A stretch of 64,000 nt of DNA from Myxococcales bacterium (GTDB taxonomy: Bacteria; Myxococcota; B64-G9). The position numbers and the translations under genes are program-made. Within the stretch, counting starts at the first letter, position 1. Each line of letters starts with the position of its first letter. The DNA lies in assembly GCA_012798435.1 (NCBI GenBank), contig JAAZNF010000087.1, positions 62,001 through 126,000 on the forward strand. Direction: 5' to 3'. Below, one piece after another: positions 17,376 to 47,933 of the stretch. The notes beneath the pieces were generated by a model. The model did no database searches. It was not told the origin of the DNA and worked only from the letters and a program-made list of their open reading frames with translations.

Positions 17376-17479
17376 GCAAAAACATATTGCAGTGGCGCAC
17401 GGCGTCGAGCGCATGGTAACTTCCCCGTGTGACACGGACTCGGACCACCCCCGGCAGTAAAAGTTCCCGCAGATTTCCC

Positions 17480-19111
17480 ATGCAGAAAGCGGTCCGTCCC
17501 GGCGGAAAAGTGAAGGAATTCGGAGGGCGGCTGGCGGCCGCGGTGCTGTCGTTCGAGGACCTGTTCGGGCAGATGGGCGGTCTGGCGGTCGATCTGCTGT
17601 GCCGCCTGGTCAACGCCGACCCGCTGGCGTTGGCCGAACGCTTGCCCGGGGCCGAGCGTGGGCCTCATGCCTGCCGCACCCTGGAGAGCGGTCGGCCGGC
17701 ACGGGACTTTGACCTGATCCTCTGTACTCTCTCGGCCGAAGAACAATTCGCCCGTTTGCCCGAATACTTGAGCCGGTGCGGCATTCCCACCCGAGCGGCA
17801 CAACGCGGAGAGCACGACCCTCTGGTGGTGGCGGGGGGCATGGCGGTGCGCCTGAACCCGCGTCCGATCCTGCCATTTTTGGACGCGTGGGCCCCCGGTG
17901 ACGCCGAGCCGACTCTGCCGGCCCTGCTCGATGCCGTGCGCGAGGTCTCGGGGCGCGGTCGAAGGCTGGAGGCGATGGCGAGCGTCGCGGGACTCGGCGT
18001 CGTGGATCGTACCGCCGGGCCGGTCCGCTGCCTTGGGTGTGCCGAGGACCGACCCGCCGCGCGAACGCTGCGCCCGGGCGAGCCGGACGGAGGCATTTTT
18101 GTGGTGGAGACGGGGCGAGGCTGCCCTGCCGGGTGCCGTTTCTGCGCCGTGGGTTGGGCCACCCGGCCACCACGCTTCTTCTCCGCCAAGACGATCTGCG
18201 CGGCAGCGGGCGAAGGGGTACGGCAGGGCTTGCGGATCGGCTTGGTGGGCGCGTCGCTGGCCCTGCATCCGGAGCTCGTACCGCTGCTAGAAGAACTTGG
18301 AGGGGAGCGGGCCGACCTCACCGCGGCTTCCCTGGAACCCTCCTTCCTGGCGACGCCGACGGGACAGGCATTGCTGCGGCGCCTTTCCTCGAGCGGTCTG
18401 CACACCTTGACCCTGGCGGTGGAGTGCGGCTCCGAACGGCTGCGCCGGGTGATCCACAAGGCGGCGCGGCGCGAACAGATCCTGGAGGCCGCCGCCCGCG
18501 CGGGTGAGACGAGCATCCAACACCTCAAGCTGTACCTCATGTTGGGCCTGCCCTCGGAGGAAGAGGCAGACCTTCTGGCTCTGACCGAGATGGTCGGTGA
18601 CGTCCAGCGCGCCTGGCTTTCTCCCCGGCGCCAGCGGGGCCGCAGCGGACGCCTCTCGGTGTCGCTCAACCCGTTCGTGCCAAAGCCGCACACCCCGTTC
18701 GCGTTCGAGGCCATGCCCAGACGAGCCGAGTTGAAGAGACGGATGATGGTGGTTCAAGATCGGTTGCGCCGCTTGGGAGGGGTCGAGCTGGCCGGTCTGT
18801 CGCCCCGCCTGGCGCAGCTCCAGTGCTTGCTGAATCGCTCGGACGAGTCGATGGCCGAGGTCCTGGAGCGTGCGAACGGGCGATGGCCGCCGCCGCCGGC
18901 CCTGCTCGAGGGCCTTTACGGCGACTGGGAGCACCGGGTGACGCAAGCCTGGCCCGCCGGTGGGCCTGTACCCTGGAGCATCGTGGACACCGGCGTCTCG
19001 AAGGCGTGGTTGGAGGCGGAGCGGGACCGCGCACAACGTGCCGAGCCGGGACCGGCATGCCGCCCTGGGAACTGCACCGCCTGCGGCGCCTGTTCGGAGA
19101 GCCCGCTCTAG
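17480..19111 (+). CDS. Radical SAM protein with B12-binding-like N-terminus (TIGR03960-like)
   Basis: Resembles the two-domain family in which a degenerate cobalamin-binding-like N-terminal domain precedes a radical SAM core. The N-terminal blocks (a LES..P..DFDL segment, GIPTRAAQR, DPLVVAGG) follow that family. The [4Fe-4S] motif CPAGCRFC gives Cys215, 219 and 222; a GLPSEEEADL block and SLNPFVPKPHTPF follow. The C-terminus has an additional cluster C-x4-C-x2-C-x2-C (CRPGNCTACGAC), which could bind metal. 543 residues from the ATG; an in-frame GTG at 17429 is an alternative with a non-conserved-looking extension. Catalysed reaction unknown. Its stop overlaps that of the opposing MDR gene. 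Confidence 0.85.
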   Translation: MQKAVRPGGKVKEFGGRLAAAVLSFEDLFGQMGGLAVDLLCRLVNADPLALAERLPGAERGPHACRTLESGRPARDFDLILCTLSAEEQFARLPEYLSRCGIPTRAAQRGEHDPLVVAGGMAVRLNPRPILPFLDAWAPGDAEPTLPALLDAVREVSGRGRRLEAMASVAGLGVVDRTAGPVRCLGCAEDRPAARTLRPGEPDGGIFVVETGRGCPAGCRFCAVGWATRPPRFFSAKTICAAAGEGVRQGLRIGLVGASLALHPELVPLLEELGGERADLTAASLEPSFLATPTGQALLRRLSSSGLHTLTLAVECGSERLRRVIHKAARREQILEAAARAGETSIQHLKLYLMLGLPSEEEADLLALTEMVGDVQRAWLSPRRQRGRSGRLSVSLNPFVPKPHTPFAFEAMPRRAELKRRMMVVQDRLRRLGGVELAGLSPRLAQLQCLLNRSDESMAEVLERANGRWPPPPALLEGLYGDWEHRVTQAWPAGGPVPWSIVDTGVSKAWLEAERDRAQRAEPGPACRPGNCTACGACSESPL

Positions 19112-20364: not shown

Positions 20365-21057
20365 TCAGACCCGGCCGGGTCCGGAGAGGTGCTCCTTGAC
20401 GCCGGCGAACGACTTGCGGTGCCATGGGCAGGGGCCGTGCCGGGCGATGGCCTCGAGGTGCTCGCGTGTGCCGTAGCCCTTGTGGCGGTCGAACCCGTAC
20501 TCCGGGAAGGCGCGGTGGAGCTCGGTCATCAAACCATCCCGGTACACCTTGGCCACGATGGAGGCGGCCGCGATGGAGGACGAGCGCCCGTCTCCCCCGA
20601 CGAAGGCCCGCTGCGGCAGGGCGGGTCGCGCGGAGAGCGGCACGAGGTCGCGCCCGTCCACCAGCACCAGGTCCGGTTCGATGCCCGTGTCCACCACCTG
20701 CATCACCGCCAGCGCCATGGCCTGCAGCGTGGCCCGGCGGATGTTGATGCGATCGATGGTGTCGGCCTCCACCCGGGCCAGCCCCAACGCCCGGGCGCAC
20801 TGGCGGATGAGCCGATCGAGTTGCTCGCGCCGTGCTGGAGAGAGCCGCTTGGAGTCGGCCAGGCCGGGCACCGGCCGATCCGGATCCAGCACCACCGCCG
20901 CGGCCACCACCGGACCGGCCAGGGGCCCACGACCGACCTCGTCTACCCCGACCAGGAGGCGCGCGCCGTTCTGACGGGCCCAGGCATCGAGGTCGCCTTC
21001 CGGTAGGCGCAGGTCGGCGGTTTCGGCCGGTTCAGATCTCGAAGGAGGCCGCGGCAT
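20365..21057 (-). CDS. rnhB: Ribonuclease HII
   Basis: Cleaves RNA in RNA/DNA hybrids and starts removal of single ribonucleotides from DNA. The catalytic motifs are GVDEVGRGPLAGPVV (Asp39, Glu40), DSKRLS, a VDGRD Asp and the SSIAAASIVAKVYRD block with GFDRHKGYGT after it. 230 residues. It overlaps the end of the upstream ATPase gene by 26 bases and is the last gene of the ffh-rpsP-trmD-rplS operon; rplS-rnhB linkage is common in bacteria, which supports the call. Confidence 0.96.
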   Translation of the reverse strand: MPRPPSRSEPAETADLRLPEGDLDAWARQNGARLLVGVDEVGRGPLAGPVVAAAVVLDPDRPVPGLADSKRLSPARREQLDRLIRQCARALGLARVEADTIDRINIRRATLQAMALAVMQVVDTGIEPDLVLVDGRDLVPLSARPALPQRAFVGGDGRSSSIAAASIVAKVYRDGLMTELHRAFPEYGFDRHKGYGTREHLEAIARHGPCPWHRKSFAGVKEHLSGPGRV

Positions 21058-23080
21058 GTCGGGCGAAGTCCGTCTGGGATGTGAACAGCACCACCTGGGT
21101 GAGGCGCCCGAGGCCGGCCAGCATCCGGCCCAGGAGTTCGATTCGCTCCGGCGGGTGGGAGGCGAACGGGTCGTCGAGCAGCAGGGGCACCGGTTGGCGG
21201 GGGCTGAAAAGCTCCACCACGGCCAGGCGCAGGCCCAGGTCGACCAGGTCCCGCTCCGCCGGGGGCAGGGACGCGGCCGGGAGCGCGGGCGCCGGCGGCG
21301 GGGGTTGCACCTCCAGCGAGCCCTCGGCCGTTATGGCCAGCCGTACAATTGTCTGCCGTGTCAGTGCCGCCACGTACTGGCTGGCGCGGGGGGAGAGCAC
21401 CTGCTGGAGGCGCTCGATGTCGACCAGGAAGAGATCCCGCGCCAGCTTGATGACTCCCACGAAAGGATCCGCCCCCGCGGCTACCGGCGCCTGGGCCTGG
21501 GCCTGCTCCTCAACGGGACTCCCATCCAGGTAGGTCTCCGGGCCCGCGCCGAAGTCCGGCGGCGGTGGCGGCTGCGGTGCCGGCTCGCCGCCCTCCAGGG
21601 AAGACAGCTTGGCCCGCAGCGCCTTCAGGCGGCGCTCCATCTCCTGCGGTCCCATGGTCAGCCCGGCGGCGGCCGAGAGGCGGGCCTCCAGCGCGCCGAT
21701 CTCCGCCTTGAGCTCGTTCTGGCGGGCCTCGAGCTCGGCGCGGTTCCGGTCGCTCTTCTTGGCCTCGGCCTCTTTCCGGGCCACGTCCAACGCCGCGCGC
21801 AGCTGATTGCGCTGCGAGAATTTCTCCAGGATCTCGGCCGGGGACTCGGCGCCCAGCACGTCCATGCTGCGCTTGACGACCGAGGTCTCGATCTCGAACT
21901 GGCGGCGCAACTTCTCCCCGCGTGAATCGACGAGTTTGAGGCGCGCGGCGGCCCGTTCTGCGGCCATGGAGCGGTCCAGGTGGCGGACGGCCACCACGGC
22001 CGCCAGGCCGAAACCAAAGAGGTCGCCCAGCGCCGCCCAGCGCAGGCCCGGGCTCACGAAGAAGCCGGTGATCCCCAGCAGCAGGCACACCGCGCCCAGG
22101 GTCATGCCCAACAAGAAGGAGCGGTTCTTCACCAGGGGCAAGGGAGATTCAGCGCGGGACTTCTCCTCCCAATCCTGCCGTTCCTCCTCCAGGCGGGCCA
22201 TGTCGCGCTCGAACTTCCCCTTGCGCTCGGAGAACTCCCGCAGCCGCTTCTCGAAGTCCCCCGGCACCTGCTCCAGCGGCGCGTAGGCCTTGAGCTGCTC
22301 CTCCAGTTGCCGGACTCGCTGCTCGCCCTCGCCGAAGCCCTTGAGCTTCTGCTCCAGCTCGAACTGCTCCTTCTGCAGCCCGTCGAGGCGGAACTGGGCC
22401 TCGTCCGCGTCCCGGGCGGCGGCCAGATCGCGCTCCAGCACTCCGATCTGGTCGCGGATGGCCGCGGCGTCGTCCGGCAGGACGTCTTCGCTGCCGCCCC
22501 CCACATCACCCTGGTAGCCGGGGAACCCCGGACCGCCGCCCTCGAAGCCGTAGGAGCTCGGCGGCAGTCGCCGTTTCGCAGGCGGGGCCTTCTTTCCCGC
22601 CGGGGGTTCCGAGCCCGCCTTCCGGCCCCGGGGCGGGCCCGCTTCAATCTCAGCCATGGGGAGCGCCCGCAGCAGGTAGAACACCGAGAACAGGTCCTGT
22701 TGCGGAAGGTGCAGGGTGGAACCCAGGTATTGCGCCACCTCGGCCGGCGACGAGGAGATGGGGACGAAGCGGTTCTCCTTCTCGTCGAGGCGCGTCAGGG
22801 CGATCCCGCCCTGGACGAAGTCGTGGACCAGCCGGTGGCGCGCGCCGCGCTCGTCGTCGATGAGCAGCGCCGCGCGGCAGGTCTCGCTCTCGCGACAGGC
22901 GAACTTGCGGGTGGCCGGTTCCAACGGATCGGGGAACAGCATGTGGGCCACCGCGTCCACCAGAGTGGACTTGCCGGTCCCAGGGCCCCCCACGAACACG
23001 GTGAACCCCGGACCCATGGGGAAACGGTGGGTCTGAGAGAAGCGGCGAACGCCTTGCAGTACCAGTTCGGAGAAGCGCAT
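21032..23080 (-). CDS. Rad50/SMC-like coiled-coil ATPase with internal membrane hairpin
   Basis: Large AAA/ABC-class ATPase of unknown role. From the ATG at 23080 (682 residues) the N-terminal Walker A is GPGTGKST (32-39) and the C-terminal Walker B is VPLLLDDPF, the split-head arrangement of Rad50, SMC and RecF-like proteins; LPPAERDLVDLGLRL stands where the ABC signature would be. The central part has long Glu/Lys/Arg-rich heptad-like segments interrupted near its middle by two adjacent hydrophobic helices (LLGMTLGAVCLLLGITGFFV and a second one). Such a membrane hairpin within a coiled coil resembles YhaN/AAA_27-type proteins. A GTG at 23110 is an alternative start; the ATG has a GGAG site. 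It lies between rplS and rnhB, an unusual location. Confidence 0.8.
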   Translation of the reverse strand: MRFSELVLQGVRRFSQTHRFPMGPGFTVFVGGPGTGKSTLVDAVAHMLFPDPLEPATRKFACRESETCRAALLIDDERGARHRLVHDFVQGGIALTRLDEKENRFVPISSSPAEVAQYLGSTLHLPQQDLFSVFYLLRALPMAEIEAGPPRGRKAGSEPPAGKKAPPAKRRLPPSSYGFEGGGPGFPGYQGDVGGGSEDVLPDDAAAIRDQIGVLERDLAAARDADEAQFRLDGLQKEQFELEQKLKGFGEGEQRVRQLEEQLKAYAPLEQVPGDFEKRLREFSERKGKFERDMARLEEERQDWEEKSRAESPLPLVKNRSFLLGMTLGAVCLLLGITGFFVSPGLRWAALGDLFGFGLAAVVAVRHLDRSMAAERAAARLKLVDSRGEKLRRQFEIETSVVKRSMDVLGAESPAEILEKFSQRNQLRAALDVARKEAEAKKSDRNRAELEARQNELKAEIGALEARLSAAAGLTMGPQEMERRLKALRAKLSSLEGGEPAPQPPPPPDFGAGPETYLDGSPVEEQAQAQAPVAAGADPFVGVIKLARDLFLVDIERLQQVLSPRASQYVAALTRQTIVRLAITAEGSLEVQPPPPAPALPAASLPPAERDLVDLGLRLAVVELFSPRQPVPLLLDDPFASHPPERIELLGRMLAGLGRLTQVVLFTSQTDFARHAAASFEI

Positions 23081-23140
23081 GGCTCCATCCGCGGGCGACC
23101 GTGAGGCCACCCGGTGCTTTCGGCGCGAACGTACCTGTAC

Positions 23141-23527
23141 CTACTCCGCCGGCTTGGCGGGGGCGTCCGGGGTCGTCTCCTGGGCCTCGCGGGCGCCCCG
23201 CAGGCGGGCGGCCTTTCCCTTGAGGTCGCGCAGGTAGTACAGCCGCGAGCGGCGCACGTGGCCCGAGCGCACCACCTCGACCTTCTCCATGCGGGGCGAG
23301 TGCAGCGGGAACTGGCGCTCCACGCCCACTCCGTAGGAGATCTTTCGCACCGTGAAGGTCTCGGAGAGGCCCCGGCCGCGGCGCCGGATGACCACGCCCT
23401 GGAACACCTGCACGCGCTCCCGCTCGCCCTCCACCACGTGCATGTGCACCCGGACCGTGTCACCGACCCGGAACGGGTCCACGCTGGACTTCATGAGGGA
23501 CTTCTCCACCTGCGACAGACGGTTCAT
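23141..23527 (-). CDS. rplS: 50S ribosomal protein bL19
   Basis: Protein of the large subunit at the 30S-50S interface. The core is fully conserved ([84 protein letters not shown]). 128 residues, with a Pro/Ala-rich tail beyond the usual end. Twelve bases after trmD in the same operon. Confidence 0.98.
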
Positions 23528-23539
23528 GATACTTCCTCC

Positions 23540-24274
23540 TCAGGCTCGTCGGCCCGTCGATTCAGAAAACAACCAGGCGCGCTCCTCTTCGTCGAGATCG
23601 GCTCGCTCGATCAGGTCGGGCCGGTGCCGCGCGGTGACGCGCAGCGCCTCCTGCCTCCGGTAGCGGGCGATGGCCCCATGGTCACCGGAGAGCAGCACCT
23701 CGGGGACTTCTCGTCCGCGGAAGGTGCGGGGCCGGGTGTACTGCGGGTACTCCAGAAGGCCATCGCCAAAACTCTCCTCGACCTTGGACGCCTCGCAGCC
23801 CATCACGCCGGGGAGCAGCCGGGTCACCGCGTCCATGATCACCCAGGCGGCGGGCTCGCCGCCGGAGAGCACGTAGTCGCCCGCGCTGATCTCGCCGTCG
23901 ACGAAGTCGCGGACCCGCTCGTCGACGCCCTCGTAGCGCCCGCACAGCAGGCCCACGTGGGGTAGCGCGGAAAGCTCCGTCGCCAGCGCCTGATCGAAGC
24001 GCCGGCCGCGCGGCCCGAGCAGGAACACCCGCACGTTGGCATCGCTCTGCCGCACGGCCTCGATCGCCCGCACCAGCGGCTCGGCCTTCATCACCATCCC
24101 CGGGCCGCCGCCGAAAGGGGCGTCGTCGACGGTGTGGTGACGGTCCTCGGTGAAGTCGCGCAGGTCCACCCGGTCCACTTGCAGCAGCCCGCGCTCGACG
24201 GCCTTGCCGAACAGGCTGGTCGCGAGCGGAGAGTCGAAGCACTCCGGGAAAATGGTGAGCAGGGTCCAGCGCAT
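23540..24274 (-). CDS. trmD: tRNA (guanine-37-N1)-methyltransferase
   Basis: SPOUT methyltransferase that makes m1G37 in tRNAs reading CCN, CUN and CGG, preventing +1 frameshifts. The sequence shows LTIFPECFD, the VDDAPFGGGPGMVMK motif, LLCGRYEGVDERV and the trefoil-knot segment DYVLSGGEPAAWVIMD. 244 residues from the ATG four bases after the rimM stop; an in-frame start further upstream would overlap rimM and is less likely. Normal length and operon position. Confidence 0.97.
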   Translation of the reverse strand: MRWTLLTIFPECFDSPLATSLFGKAVERGLLQVDRVDLRDFTEDRHHTVDDAPFGGGPGMVMKAEPLVRAIEAVRQSDANVRVFLLGPRGRRFDQALATELSALPHVGLLCGRYEGVDERVRDFVDGEISAGDYVLSGGEPAAWVIMDAVTRLLPGVMGCEASKVEESFGDGLLEYPQYTRPRTFRGREVPEVLLSGDHGAIARYRRQEALRVTARHRPDLIERADLDEEERAWLFSESTGRRA

Positions 24275-24278
24275 GCGC

Positions 24279-24794
24279 TCACAGCTCCCACAGGCCGGGC
24301 GGGACATCCACGATCACCCGGCCGCTCGCAAGATCCACCTCACGAAAGATGCCGCCGGCCACCGGCAGCAGGTGCTCCCGGCCGTTCTCCTCCACCACGA
24401 AGATATCGTGCGCGCCGTTGTCAAAGATCCGCGAAAGCCTTCCCAGTCGCTTCCCGGCCAAGTCCACCACCGTAAGACCGATGAGCTCGCCGGTGTACCG
24501 CGCGCCTCCCGAAAGGGGAGGCAGATCCTCCAGCGCCGCGAACACGTCCAGGCCCGAAAACTCGCGGGCCCGCTCGGGATCCGAGATGCCCTCCAGGGCC
24601 ACGATCACGAAGCGGCCCTGGCCGCGCACGCTGCAGAGCGACATGGGCCGCGCCTCCTCCGGGCTGCGGCCCACGAAAACCTCCTTCACACGGCGCCAGC
24701 CGCCCGACGACTGGTCCTCCTCCACCACCTTCAGCTCGCCCGTCACGCCGTGCGGCCGGGCGATGCGTCCGACCCTGGTCAAGCGCCGGGTCAT
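24279..24794 (-). CDS. rimM: 16S rRNA processing protein RimM
   Basis: 30S maturation factor acting at the head with ribosomal protein uS19. Two beta-barrel domains are visible: an N-terminal RimM domain (VGRIARPHGVTGELKV) and a C-terminal PRC-barrel (LIGLTVVDLAGKRLGRL, FDNGAHDIFVVE, LLPVAGGIFREVDL). 171 residues. Directly upstream of trmD, as in most bacteria. Confidence 0.96.
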   Translation of the reverse strand: MTRRLTRVGRIARPHGVTGELKVVEEDQSSGGWRRVKEVFVGRSPEEARPMSLCSVRGQGRFVIVALEGISDPERAREFSGLDVFAALEDLPPLSGGARYTGELIGLTVVDLAGKRLGRLSRIFDNGAHDIFVVEENGREHLLPVAGGIFREVDLASGRVIVDVPPGLWEL

Positions 24795-24814
24795 GCCCGC
24801 CTCGGGCGCCGACC

Positions 24815-25051
24815 TCAGTCGGCGATGTCGAGCCGGGCCCGCGCGCCCGTCCGGGTAGAGGCCACCGCCAACACGGTGCGCAGAGCGCGGGCGGTGCGGC
24901 CCTCGCGGCCGATCACCCGCCCGGTGTCTCCCGGGGCGACCCGCAGGCGCAGCACCCGCTCCCGCTCGGCGCTCTCCTCGCTCACCTCCACCGCGGCGGG
25001 GTCCTGCACCAGCGCGCGCGCCATGAAGGCCACCAGCTCGCGCATCGGCAT
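24815..25051 (-). CDS. khpA: KH-domain RNA-binding protein (KhpA/YlqC type)
   Basis: Small RNA-binding protein consisting of a single KH domain; the GxxG loop is GREG in the segment VIGREGRTARALRTVL. 78 residues, the normal size. It lies between rpsP and rimM, the standard place for this family, four bases after rpsP. In other bacteria the protein partners KhpB and affects small RNAs, division or elongation; that role here is only inferred. Confidence 0.92.
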   Translation of the reverse strand: MPMRELVAFMARALVQDPAAVEVSEESAERERVLRLRVAPGDTGRVIGREGRTARALRTVLAVASTRTGARARLDIAD

Positions 25052-25055
25052 GGCG

Positions 25056-25334
25056 CTAGCCCTGGGCCGCCGGCGCCGCGGAGGCTGCGGGGGCCTCGGT
25101 CGGAGCCGGGTGCCGCGCCACCAGCTCGGCCACCGTCCGGCTCAGGCGCGCGCCGCGCTGCACCCAGAAAGCCAGCCGCTCCCGGTCGATGGCGAAGCTC
25201 TTGCTGCCGCGCGGGGCATAGTGTCCGAGCTGCTCCAGGCACCGCCCGTTGCGGGCCCGCCGCGAGTCCGCCACCACCACCTGGTAGTAGGGCTCGTTGC
25301 GGCCGCCGGATCTCCTCAGTCTGATCGTGGTCAT
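25056..25334 (-). CDS. rpsP: 30S ribosomal protein bS16
   Basis: Assembly protein of the small subunit. The conserved N-terminus IRLRRSGGRNEPYYQVVVAD and the block LEQLGHYAPRG leave no doubt. 92 residues including an Ala/Pro-rich tail that is not conserved in the family. Nineteen bases after ffh. Confidence 0.98.
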   Translation of the reverse strand: MTTIRLRRSGGRNEPYYQVVVADSRRARNGRCLEQLGHYAPRGSKSFAIDRERLAFWVQRGARLSRTVAELVARHPAPTEAPAASAAPAAQG

Positions 25335-25353
25335 GGAAAAACCGCCTCTCCTT

Positions 25354-26694
<1,341 letters not shown>

Positions 26695-45275: not shown

Positions 45276-47888
45276 CTATCGTCTGCGCCGGCATCGCGCG
45301 ATCCACCCGAGCAAAACGAGACCCATCAGGCTGGCCGCCATGCCGGTGCCGCTGGAGGCGCAGCCGCAGCCGCCGTCCCCGTCTCCGCCTCCGCCGTCGC
45401 CACCCGCGTCCGTCGGCCCGCCGTCGGAGCCGCCGTCCTTGCCCGCGTCGCTGCCGGCGTCAGAGCCGGCATCAACGCCGGCGTCGAACCCGTCCGGGCC
45501 CGCGTCGATGCCCGCGTCCGGCTGGGGCTCCTCTTCCTTGATGCAGAAGCCGTCGCGGCACACGGCGTCGGCCGGGCACACTACGCCCTCGCAGGCATCG
45601 GCGACGCACTGGCCGTTTTCGCAGCGCTCCCCACGGGAACAATACACCCCCTGGCACGGGTCGGCGGCGCACTCGCCGTTCTGGCAGGAACGACCATTGG
45701 GGCAAACCACTCCGGCGCAGGGGTCGGAGGTGCACTGGCCGTCCTGGCAGGTCTCGCCCGCGGCGCAGTTGGTGCAGGCCACCTCGCGGCACACGCCCTC
45801 GCGGCAGTACTGATCCGACGGGCAGTCGATCCCGGCGCACGGATCGGTCACGCAAACACCCGCAGCGCAGCGCTGGTCTGCCGGGCACTCGTGTCCCGGA
45901 GCATAGCAATCGGGTTCCACGCACAGGCCATCGCGGCACACTTGCTCGGGCGGGCAGGAGACGCCGCCGGTGAGGCAAGGATCCTGGCACTCGCCGTTGC
46001 TCTGGGCGCTGCAAGCGGTGCCGGCCGGGCAGTGCACACCGCAGCAGGGGTCGGAGACGCACCAACCGAAGACGCAGCGCTTACCGCCGGCGGGGCACTC
46101 GCCGCTGGCGCAGGGGCCCACGCACTCGCCGCAAAGGCACTCCTCGCCCGGCGCGCACAAGGAGCCGTCGTCGGTGAGCCCGTCGCAGTCGTTGTCCAAC
46201 AGATCGCAGATCTCGTCCGTGGGCGGCGTCTGGCCGCGGCAGTCCGCCCAGCGCCCCTGGCTGGTGCAGATCTGGACGCCCTCGCGGCACTCGCCGATGT
46301 TCACCCCGCAGGGCCGCTGCTCGCCCGGCGTGCACACGCCGCAGGTGGAGTCCTCCAGGTCGGTGAAGCCGTCGCAGTCGTTGTCGATGCTGTCGTCGCA
46401 GACCTCGTCCGAGGGCATCCCGGCCGAGCACTGGCCCAGCATTCCGTTTACGCAGTCGATGGTCCCGTCGCCGCAGGCGGTGAAGCACTCTTGCGGCCAG
46501 TCCTCGTCGACCTCGCCGTCGCAGTCGTCGTCCTGGAGGTTGCACTCTTCGAACTGCGGCATCCCCGGCTCGGCCGAGCACATCACGTCCGTGCCGTCCG
46601 GCGTGCAGACGTAGGTGCCCTGGCGCAGGCAGGCGCCCTGACCGGCGGAGCACGCCTGCCCCTTCAGCGGGAAATCCTCATCGATGGAGCCGTCGCAATC
46701 GTTGTCCTTGTTGTCGCATACCTCCGGCAGCGGGGTACGTTCGCCGATGCATTGCATGCTGCCGTCGAGGCACATGAGCGCTCCCGGGGCGCATTCGCCG
46801 CGGCAGGCAGGGGAGGGGGCGCCGCAGGCCCCGCACGCTCGGCCCATGTTGGGATCGGATTCGTCGATGACGCCGTTGCAGTTGTCGTCGCGGCCGTTGC
46901 AGGTCTCCGTCGCGCCCGGGCGGATGGAGGCTGCGCTCTGGGCGGTGCAGCCGATCATGGGCTCGCTGCCGCTGTCGCAGCAGTCGCTGCAGGTGCTCAC
47001 CCCGTCGTTGTCCCGGTCGAAGATGGTCACCCCGTCCGCCTCGTCAACCTGCGAGTCGCAGTCGTTGTCGATGCCGTCGCAGATCTCGGTGGCGGGGACG
47101 ATCTGGGCGGTGCACACCAGGCCGTCATGGGCGGCGTTGCACTGATAGACGCCCTGGCCGGTGCAGCCGCCCTGGGAGATCGTGCACAGGGTGCCCTTCA
47201 GCGGCCAGGGTTCGTCCACCTGGCCGTTGCAGTTGTTGTCGCGGTCGTCGCAGATCTCCTGCAGGCTCTGATTGATGATGGAGTTCATGGCGTCCTGCAA
47301 CTGGGTCTGGTTATCCGCCTGGTAATAGGTCCCGGTGTGACCGGCGGCGGCGATGTTGTTCAAGGCGGTAGGGTTCACGCCGCTACCGAAGCCGATGACG
47401 TAGGTGCGGATGCCGTTGTTGTAGAGATCTCCCGCTGCCACCACGCCGTTGCCCTCGCAGGTTTCCGAGCCATCGGTGATCAGCATGACGAAGTTGCGCC
47501 GATTGGTGTCCTTGAGGGGAGCGTACTGGTTGAGCATGGACAGCGTGGCGCCGATGGGCGTGTTGCCGCTCGGCCAGTATTGATCGGTGGGCAGGGCAGC
47601 CATGATGGCCGTCGCGGTGTTGTCCCCCACGTTCACCACCACCGTGCCGTAGTTGCAGTTGGAATTGGATGGAAACAGGTTGAGCCCGAAACGCAGCAAG
47701 GTTCCGTAGTTGTCGAGCACGTACTGGATGGCGGCGCGGGCCTGGGTCCATTTGGTGCCGTCCATGCTGCCCGACTTGTCCTGCACGATGAGCATGTTGG
47801 GCTTCTCGCAGGTGGGTTGTGCCCGGACGGATCCGGAGATCAGGACAACCACCGCCAGGGTCAACAGGCCGATTCGCCGCGTTTTCAT
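45276..47888 (-). CDS. VWA/MopE-repeat surface protein with MYXO-CTERM sorting signal
   Basis: Predicted cell-surface protein. Signal peptide (1-24), then a VWA domain with complete adhesion site (DKSGS 37-41, Thr in NTPIG, LITDGSE). Next come about seven MopE-like repeats of pattern E-x-CD..DNDCDG..DE, which in related proteins bind metal or Ca, and about nine Cys-rich EGF-like units (DPCAGVVCPNGRSCQNGEC type). A Asp-Ala-Gly linker leads to the C-terminal MYXO-CTERM signal: GCGCASS, a hydrophobic helix and RCRRRR. This tail is recognised by a rhombosortase-like or myxosortase protease in the phylum. 870 residues; ATG with GAGGTG site, 45 bases after the upstream lipoprotein gene. Confidence 0.9.
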   Translation of the reverse strand: MKTRRIGLLTLAVVVLISGSVRAQPTCEKPNMLIVQDKSGSMDGTKWTQARAAIQYVLDNYGTLLRFGLNLFPSNSNCNYGTVVVNVGDNTATAIMAALPTDQYWPSGNTPIGATLSMLNQYAPLKDTNRRNFVMLITDGSETCEGNGVVAAGDLYNNGIRTYVIGFGSGVNPTALNNIAAAGHTGTYYQADNQTQLQDAMNSIINQSLQEICDDRDNNCNGQVDEPWPLKGTLCTISQGGCTGQGVYQCNAAHDGLVCTAQIVPATEICDGIDNDCDSQVDEADGVTIFDRDNDGVSTCSDCCDSGSEPMIGCTAQSAASIRPGATETCNGRDDNCNGVIDESDPNMGRACGACGAPSPACRGECAPGALMCLDGSMQCIGERTPLPEVCDNKDNDCDGSIDEDFPLKGQACSAGQGACLRQGTYVCTPDGTDVMCSAEPGMPQFEECNLQDDDCDGEVDEDWPQECFTACGDGTIDCVNGMLGQCSAGMPSDEVCDDSIDNDCDGFTDLEDSTCGVCTPGEQRPCGVNIGECREGVQICTSQGRWADCRGQTPPTDEICDLLDNDCDGLTDDGSLCAPGEECLCGECVGPCASGECPAGGKRCVFGWCVSDPCCGVHCPAGTACSAQSNGECQDPCLTGGVSCPPEQVCRDGLCVEPDCYAPGHECPADQRCAAGVCVTDPCAGIDCPSDQYCREGVCREVACTNCAAGETCQDGQCTSDPCAGVVCPNGRSCQNGECAADPCQGVYCSRGERCENGQCVADACEGVVCPADAVCRDGFCIKEEEPQPDAGIDAGPDGFDAGVDAGSDAGSDAGKDGGSDGGPTDAGGDGGGGDGDGGCGCASSGTGMAASLMGLVLLGWIARCRRRR

Positions 47889-47933
47889 GGTCACCTCTGC
47901 AAAATCTGCAAAATCGACGGACCCATGTCCGCC

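Follow-up and report, generated by a model that had tools for sequence, protein, structure and literature searches.

The window (the whole stretch of 64,000 nucleotides of Myxococcales bacterium DNA analysed here) encodes a Rad50/SMC-like protein with a hydrophobic hairpin at the apex of its coiled coil, which we interpret, with a probability of about 0.5, as a membrane-tethered rod of the Rad50 type that now acts as a scaffold or tether, the ATP cycle having been lost in Myxococcota. SMC and Rad50 proteins are normally regarded as ATP-driven machines; the loss of the ATP-gripping site in most of the species examined, with the gene nevertheless preserved, suggests that here a motor has been turned into a structural part. 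A conserved lineage that has lost the signature and the P-loop but retains its head fold, coiled coil and hairpin amounts to a natural experiment on an ATP-free fold. The question is testable, since Myxococcus xanthus, a model organism, has a member of the family that can be deleted and tagged.

Sequence features and genomic locus

The features of the gene and of its surroundings are as follows.

21032..23080, minus strand: Rad50/SMC-like membrane-hairpin gene, 682 amino acids counted from the ATG at 23080
22964..22990, minus strand: Walker A motif GGPGTGKST, amino acids 31-39, intact among Myxococcota only in the class of the window protein
22151..22468, minus strand: first coiled-coil arm, amino acids 205-310 (AlphaFold helices)
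22055..22111, minus strand: TM1 of the apex hairpin, amino acids 324-342 (Kyte-Doolittle mean 2.14; AlphaFold helix 320-342)
21983..22039, minus strand: TM2 of the apex hairpin, amino acids 348-366 (Kyte-Doolittle mean 1.50)
21590..21982, minus strand: second coiled-coil arm, amino acids 367-497 (AlphaFold model)
21248..21268, minus strand: degenerate ABC signature LPPAERD replacing LSxG, amino acids 605-611 (motif table)
21164..21187, minus strand: Walker B-like PLLLDDPF, amino acids 632-639 (sequence and motif table)
21074..21076, minus strand: Q669 at the H-loop position, the histidine being missing (motif table)
23141..23527, minus strand: rplS (L19), the conserved upstream neighbour (Pfam E 9e-48)
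20365..21057, minus strand: rnhB (RNase HII; Pfam E 7e-41), overlapping the 3' end of the window gene by 26 bases
23540..26694, minus strand: trmD, rimM, a small ORF, rpsP and ffh, the remainder of the operon
24815-25051, minus strand: the small ORF, of KhpA size, between rimM and rpsP in the operon listing

The gene exists at the location given in the earlier note, between rplS and rnhB. An alternative upstream GTG start is found at 23110; the family alignments start at the ATG at 23080. The overlap with rnhB, also reported in the note, is real because the ATG at 21057 is the sole ATG, GTG or TTG start ahead of the RNase HII active-site motif. The N-terminal Walker A, the C-terminal Walker B, the coiled coils and the two hydrophobic helices that the note described are all present. 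A pair of hydrophobic segments like that of the window protein appears in 7 of 2000 shuffled sequences of the same composition, and a P-loop within the first 60 amino acids in 58 of 20000 composition-preserving shuffles of this protein.

A Pfam search with the window protein identifies SMC_N, AAA_29 and AAA_23, with all matches confined to the N-terminus; the match to PF13514 (AAA_27) is under the cut-off (E 0.015, 15.3 bits vs 22), and NCBIfam yields sub-threshold matches to Rad50 and SMC families and nothing else. The gene is present once in its genome.

Among the upstream genes, ffh was identified with Pfam and NCBIfam, and trmD, rimM and rpsP were named from their own sequences and the conserved gene order. 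Between rplS and the window gene, nothing resembling a terminator was detected, and an Rfam scan of the 64-kb window detected no RNA family. The position after rplS most likely reflects growth-linked expression together with the ffh-rpsP-rimM-trmD-rplS operon; this placement can be explained by expression alone and provides no evidence for a role in RNA/DNA hybrid processing. In the loci L055, L056, L058, L060, L064, L065 and L072, rplS and the gene are adjacent, and no rpsP, rimM or trmD was found in the 5-6 kb upstream.

Two other genes of the window can be mentioned. The radical SAM protein encoded at 17429-19111 shows partial and divergent similarity to TIGR03960, a B12-binding radical SAM family, and the 872-amino-acid protein encoded at 45276-47894 is weakly similar to the gliding-motility lipoprotein CglB and to a sortase-target VWA family.

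Predicted fold and membrane hairpin

The AlphaFold model of the window protein (pLDDT 83.6) consists of head strands and helices contributed by both termini, two helical arms and an apex hairpin flanked on both sides by long helices. The M. xanthus member, modelled with pLDDT 86.3 from an alignment that included P-loop-positive rows, lacks the P-loop, and its model is still a Rad50 head. In both cases, the top Foldseek matches are Rad50 structures, with TM scores to Pyrococcus furiosus Rad50 of 0.77 for the window protein and 0.75 for the M. xanthus member, in agreement with the Rad50-like layout proposed in the earlier note.

TM1 of the hairpin is found in essentially all full-length members of the family; TM2 is weaker, being moderately hydrophobic in many of them. 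In the window protein as well, TM2 is the weaker of the two segments and contains an aspartate; its LGDLFGFG stretch occupies the site of the conserved LLDIPAFG-type motif of the family. By the Kyte-Doolittle scale and a simple biological scale, used here in place of a trained predictor, hydropathy favours membrane helices, as the note had assumed, so that the hairpin would be inserted in the membrane, with the heads predicted to face the cytoplasm.

Family spread and conserved gene order

Homologs were detected, by P0001, in 38 of 58 relatives from the phylum, and one more (L112) was recognized by position only, as a diverged P-loop-less copy after rplS in a genome without a detected homolog; universal presence in Myxococcota is thus ruled out. 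A scan of named genomes, a sample skewed to Myxococcaceae, yielded 44 loci, nearly all from Myxococcota (M. xanthus, Pyxidicoccus, Archangium, Anaeromyxobacter and metagenome-assembled genomes). The bin of the source genome and many of its relatives are likewise metagenome assemblies. One record, L048, is titled Comamonas sp. KCTC 72670, but its copy is myxobacterial, has rpsP-rimM-trmD-rplS upstream and falls within Myxococcaceae in the tree; this assembly is probably mislabelled or contaminated.

The placement between rplS and rnhB, whose conservation the earlier note proposed to check, holds on the upstream side: rplS is the immediate upstream neighbor in 42 of the 44 named-genome loci (the exceptions are L061 and L069), and also in 26 of the first 30 loci examined. 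The downstream side differs in M. xanthus (gene at L050 6001-7899), where the order is rplS-X-yraN-rsmI, with no rnhB downstream. Furthermore, in genomes without a detected homolog, rnhB often comes immediately after rplS, which makes rnhB simply an ordinary neighbor; this adjacency together with the M. xanthus order removes a specific operon link to rnhB. Apart from proximity, nothing supports the suggestion of the note that the protein couples the membrane to DNA damage or to the processing of RNA/DNA hybrids.

The P-loop-less set and the class of the window protein align in hhalign with E 3.5e-93 over 629 columns and share the position after rplS, and accordingly constitute one family. The M. 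xanthus member matches no Pfam family, and a search limited to the open-access literature, and hence weak evidence, found nothing relevant on such proteins. The homologs belong to no named family of known function.

Weak similarity to LmuB, JetC and PtuA in a PADLOC search could be taken to place the protein in a Lamassu-, Wadjet- or Septu-type system for defence against phages. The matches are unspecific, mostly over the P-loop region, and the M. xanthus member gives one weak unrelated match; the gene itself is single-copy and occupies a stable housekeeping position with no effector neighbor. We consider a defence function extremely improbable and have rejected it.

Loss of the ATP-site motifs under purifying selection

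The motif table comprises 68 sequences, 9 from the class of the window protein, 48 from other Myxococcota and 11 from Nitrospirota. Walker A is present in 9/9, 0/48 and 11/11 of these, respectively; in the 48 other Myxococcota sequences, its site holds segments such as LKPPSAESSPLAG. Within the class of the window protein, G34, G36, K37 and D636 are invariant in all nine sequences. The serine and glycine of the signature (S-x-G) are both missing in each of the 57 Myxococcota sequences, including that from the window, and the Nitrospirota relatives carry LSHG, LSRG and similar signatures, LSxG-type in most. Walker B is partly retained. The signature and H-loop are degenerate even in the class of the window protein, a feature on which the earlier note did not remark. 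As read from the sequences, then, the signature is lost throughout Myxococcota and the P-loop is lost outside the class of the window protein, which argues against an ATPase engine of the Rad50 type. Motif loss of this kind suggests, as a hint, that the family consists of ABC pseudo-ATPases that do not hydrolyse nucleotides.

The profile of the P-loop-less members by itself still retrieves Rad50 from the PDB (E 9e-9). In these members, the open frame is kept and head residues outside the ATP site are invariant; dN/dS is about 0.11-0.15 in close pairs and about 0.3 in more distant ones, and the constraint on the head is similar to that on the entire protein. Taken together with the hhalign result and the retained Rad50 head, these values imply that selection continued to maintain the fold as the ATP site disappeared. 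The disappearance of catalytic motifs from most lineages might also be expected of a decaying, functionless gene in the P-loop-less lineages, but dN/dS of 0.1-0.3, the open frame and the invariant head residues contradict this explanation, which we consider very improbable and have discarded. The tree favors more than one P-loop change, a single loss not being rejected (p-AU 0.15).

The same motif pattern bears on whether the protein could be an active membrane-bound repair ATPase of the Rad50/YhaN type that works with a nuclease and is possibly helped by RNase HII. The intact Walker A and B in the class of the window protein, the Rad50 fold and the overlap with rnhB are compatible with such a role. 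It appears unlikely, though, considering the degenerate signature and H-loop in that class, the absence of the P-loop from the rest of the Myxococcota family members examined, and the behavior of rnhB described above. The nuclease partner that the earlier note proposed to look for elsewhere in the genome does not fit either: a YhaO-like metallophosphoesterase gene exists but adjoins its own intact, hairpin-containing YhaN-like ATPase, and no nuclease of the SbcD/YhaO kind was seen beside the gene in the arrangements read, including the window locus.

Proposed function

The ABC/Rad50 head is probably becoming, or already is, a nucleotide-independent, membrane-tethered scaffold. From sequence and predicted structure, the N- and C-terminal lobes would form the ABC head, connected to antiparallel arms that end in a two-helix hairpin, putatively in the inner membrane, at the place where Rad50 has a zinc hook and SMC proteins have a hinge. 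The protein has relatives whose ATP site is complete, the Nitrospirota members retaining both Walker motifs and a signature of the LSxG type. With the signature gone, the canonical ABC sandwich would not form, which points to a tether or scaffold that, judging from the missing motifs, could anchor a cytoplasmic partner to the membrane. In the class of the window protein, ATP might still bind, acting as a structural ligand or a switch, without the normal cycle of sandwich formation and hydrolysis; in the other Myxococcota lineages, the protein would function without nucleotide. The good conservation of both Walker motifs in the class of the window protein means that its members may still be working ATPases to which an unusual partner provides the signature in trans.

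That the P-loop and Walker B are kept there and the signature and H-loop are not is also compatible with an organizer linking the membrane to the nucleoid or to the ribosome, in which ATP binding rather than hydrolysis gates the opening of the heads, with the P-loop-less relatives locked in one state. The operon shared with SRP and ribosomal genes fits this possibility, but expression level alone can account for the operon position, and we regard such an organizer as conceivable but doubtful.

Extending the scaffold reading to the phylum, we tentatively propose, at slightly below even odds, that membrane-anchored SMC/Rad50 pseudo-ATPases form a class widespread in Myxococcota. They would be nucleotide-independent rods, produced along with L19 and the SRP GTPase, that connect the inner membrane to a cytoplasmic machine. 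The class of the window protein, with Walker A and B kept and the signature lost, would be a candidate intermediate.

Comparison with known systems

Rad50/SbcC is the best match of the window protein in both structure and sequence, sharing the bipartite ABC head and the antiparallel coiled coil. The apex of the Rad50 coiled coil is a zinc hook and that of SMC proteins is a hinge, whereas the window protein has a hydrophobic hairpin and no CxxC zinc hook. Walker A and Walker B of Rad50 are found in the class of the window protein, in contrast to the other Myxococcota members, which lack Walker A; the signature (LPPAERD) and the H-loop (Q669) are lost. Rather than an Mre11/SbcD nuclease, the adjacent genes are rplS and rnhB.

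The bacterial SMC and MukB proteins, Lamassu LmuB and JetC resemble the window protein in having SMC-type ABC heads with coiled coils. These proteins possess a dimerization hinge or hook, a canonical ATP site and dedicated partner proteins, and contain no membrane hairpin.

YhaN (AAA_27, PF13514), judged here on the YhaN-like protein of the same genome, is similar in its Rad50-like head and hydrophobic hairpin at the apex. This protein (G000:C29), encoded after the YhaO-like metallophosphoesterase in the locus L096 1017-4384, is motif-complete (GPNESGKTT, LSQGTRD and LDEPF) and has a hairpin of its own, so that the window gene is not alone in combining a Rad50-like protein with a hairpin. The hhalign alignment between the window family and this YhaN is confined to the C-terminal lobe, and the window protein differs in scoring under the Pfam cut-off, in lacking the signature and in having no nuclease neighbor. 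A search of other genomes for YhaN, run without a positive control, came back empty.

The tmk-linked hairpin ATPase of Nitrospirota (L061, L076-L091) is a full-length homolog with a hairpin (hhalign E 8.8e-37). It differs from the window family by its complete Walker A, its mostly LSxG-type signature and its neighborhood, which contains tmk rather than rplS, often with trpE before the gene. This full-motif relative is encoded ahead of tmk-holB (L061 4378-12995 and the Nitrospirota loci L075-L089), with trpE upstream in loci that extend that far, and thus defines a second conserved genomic position.
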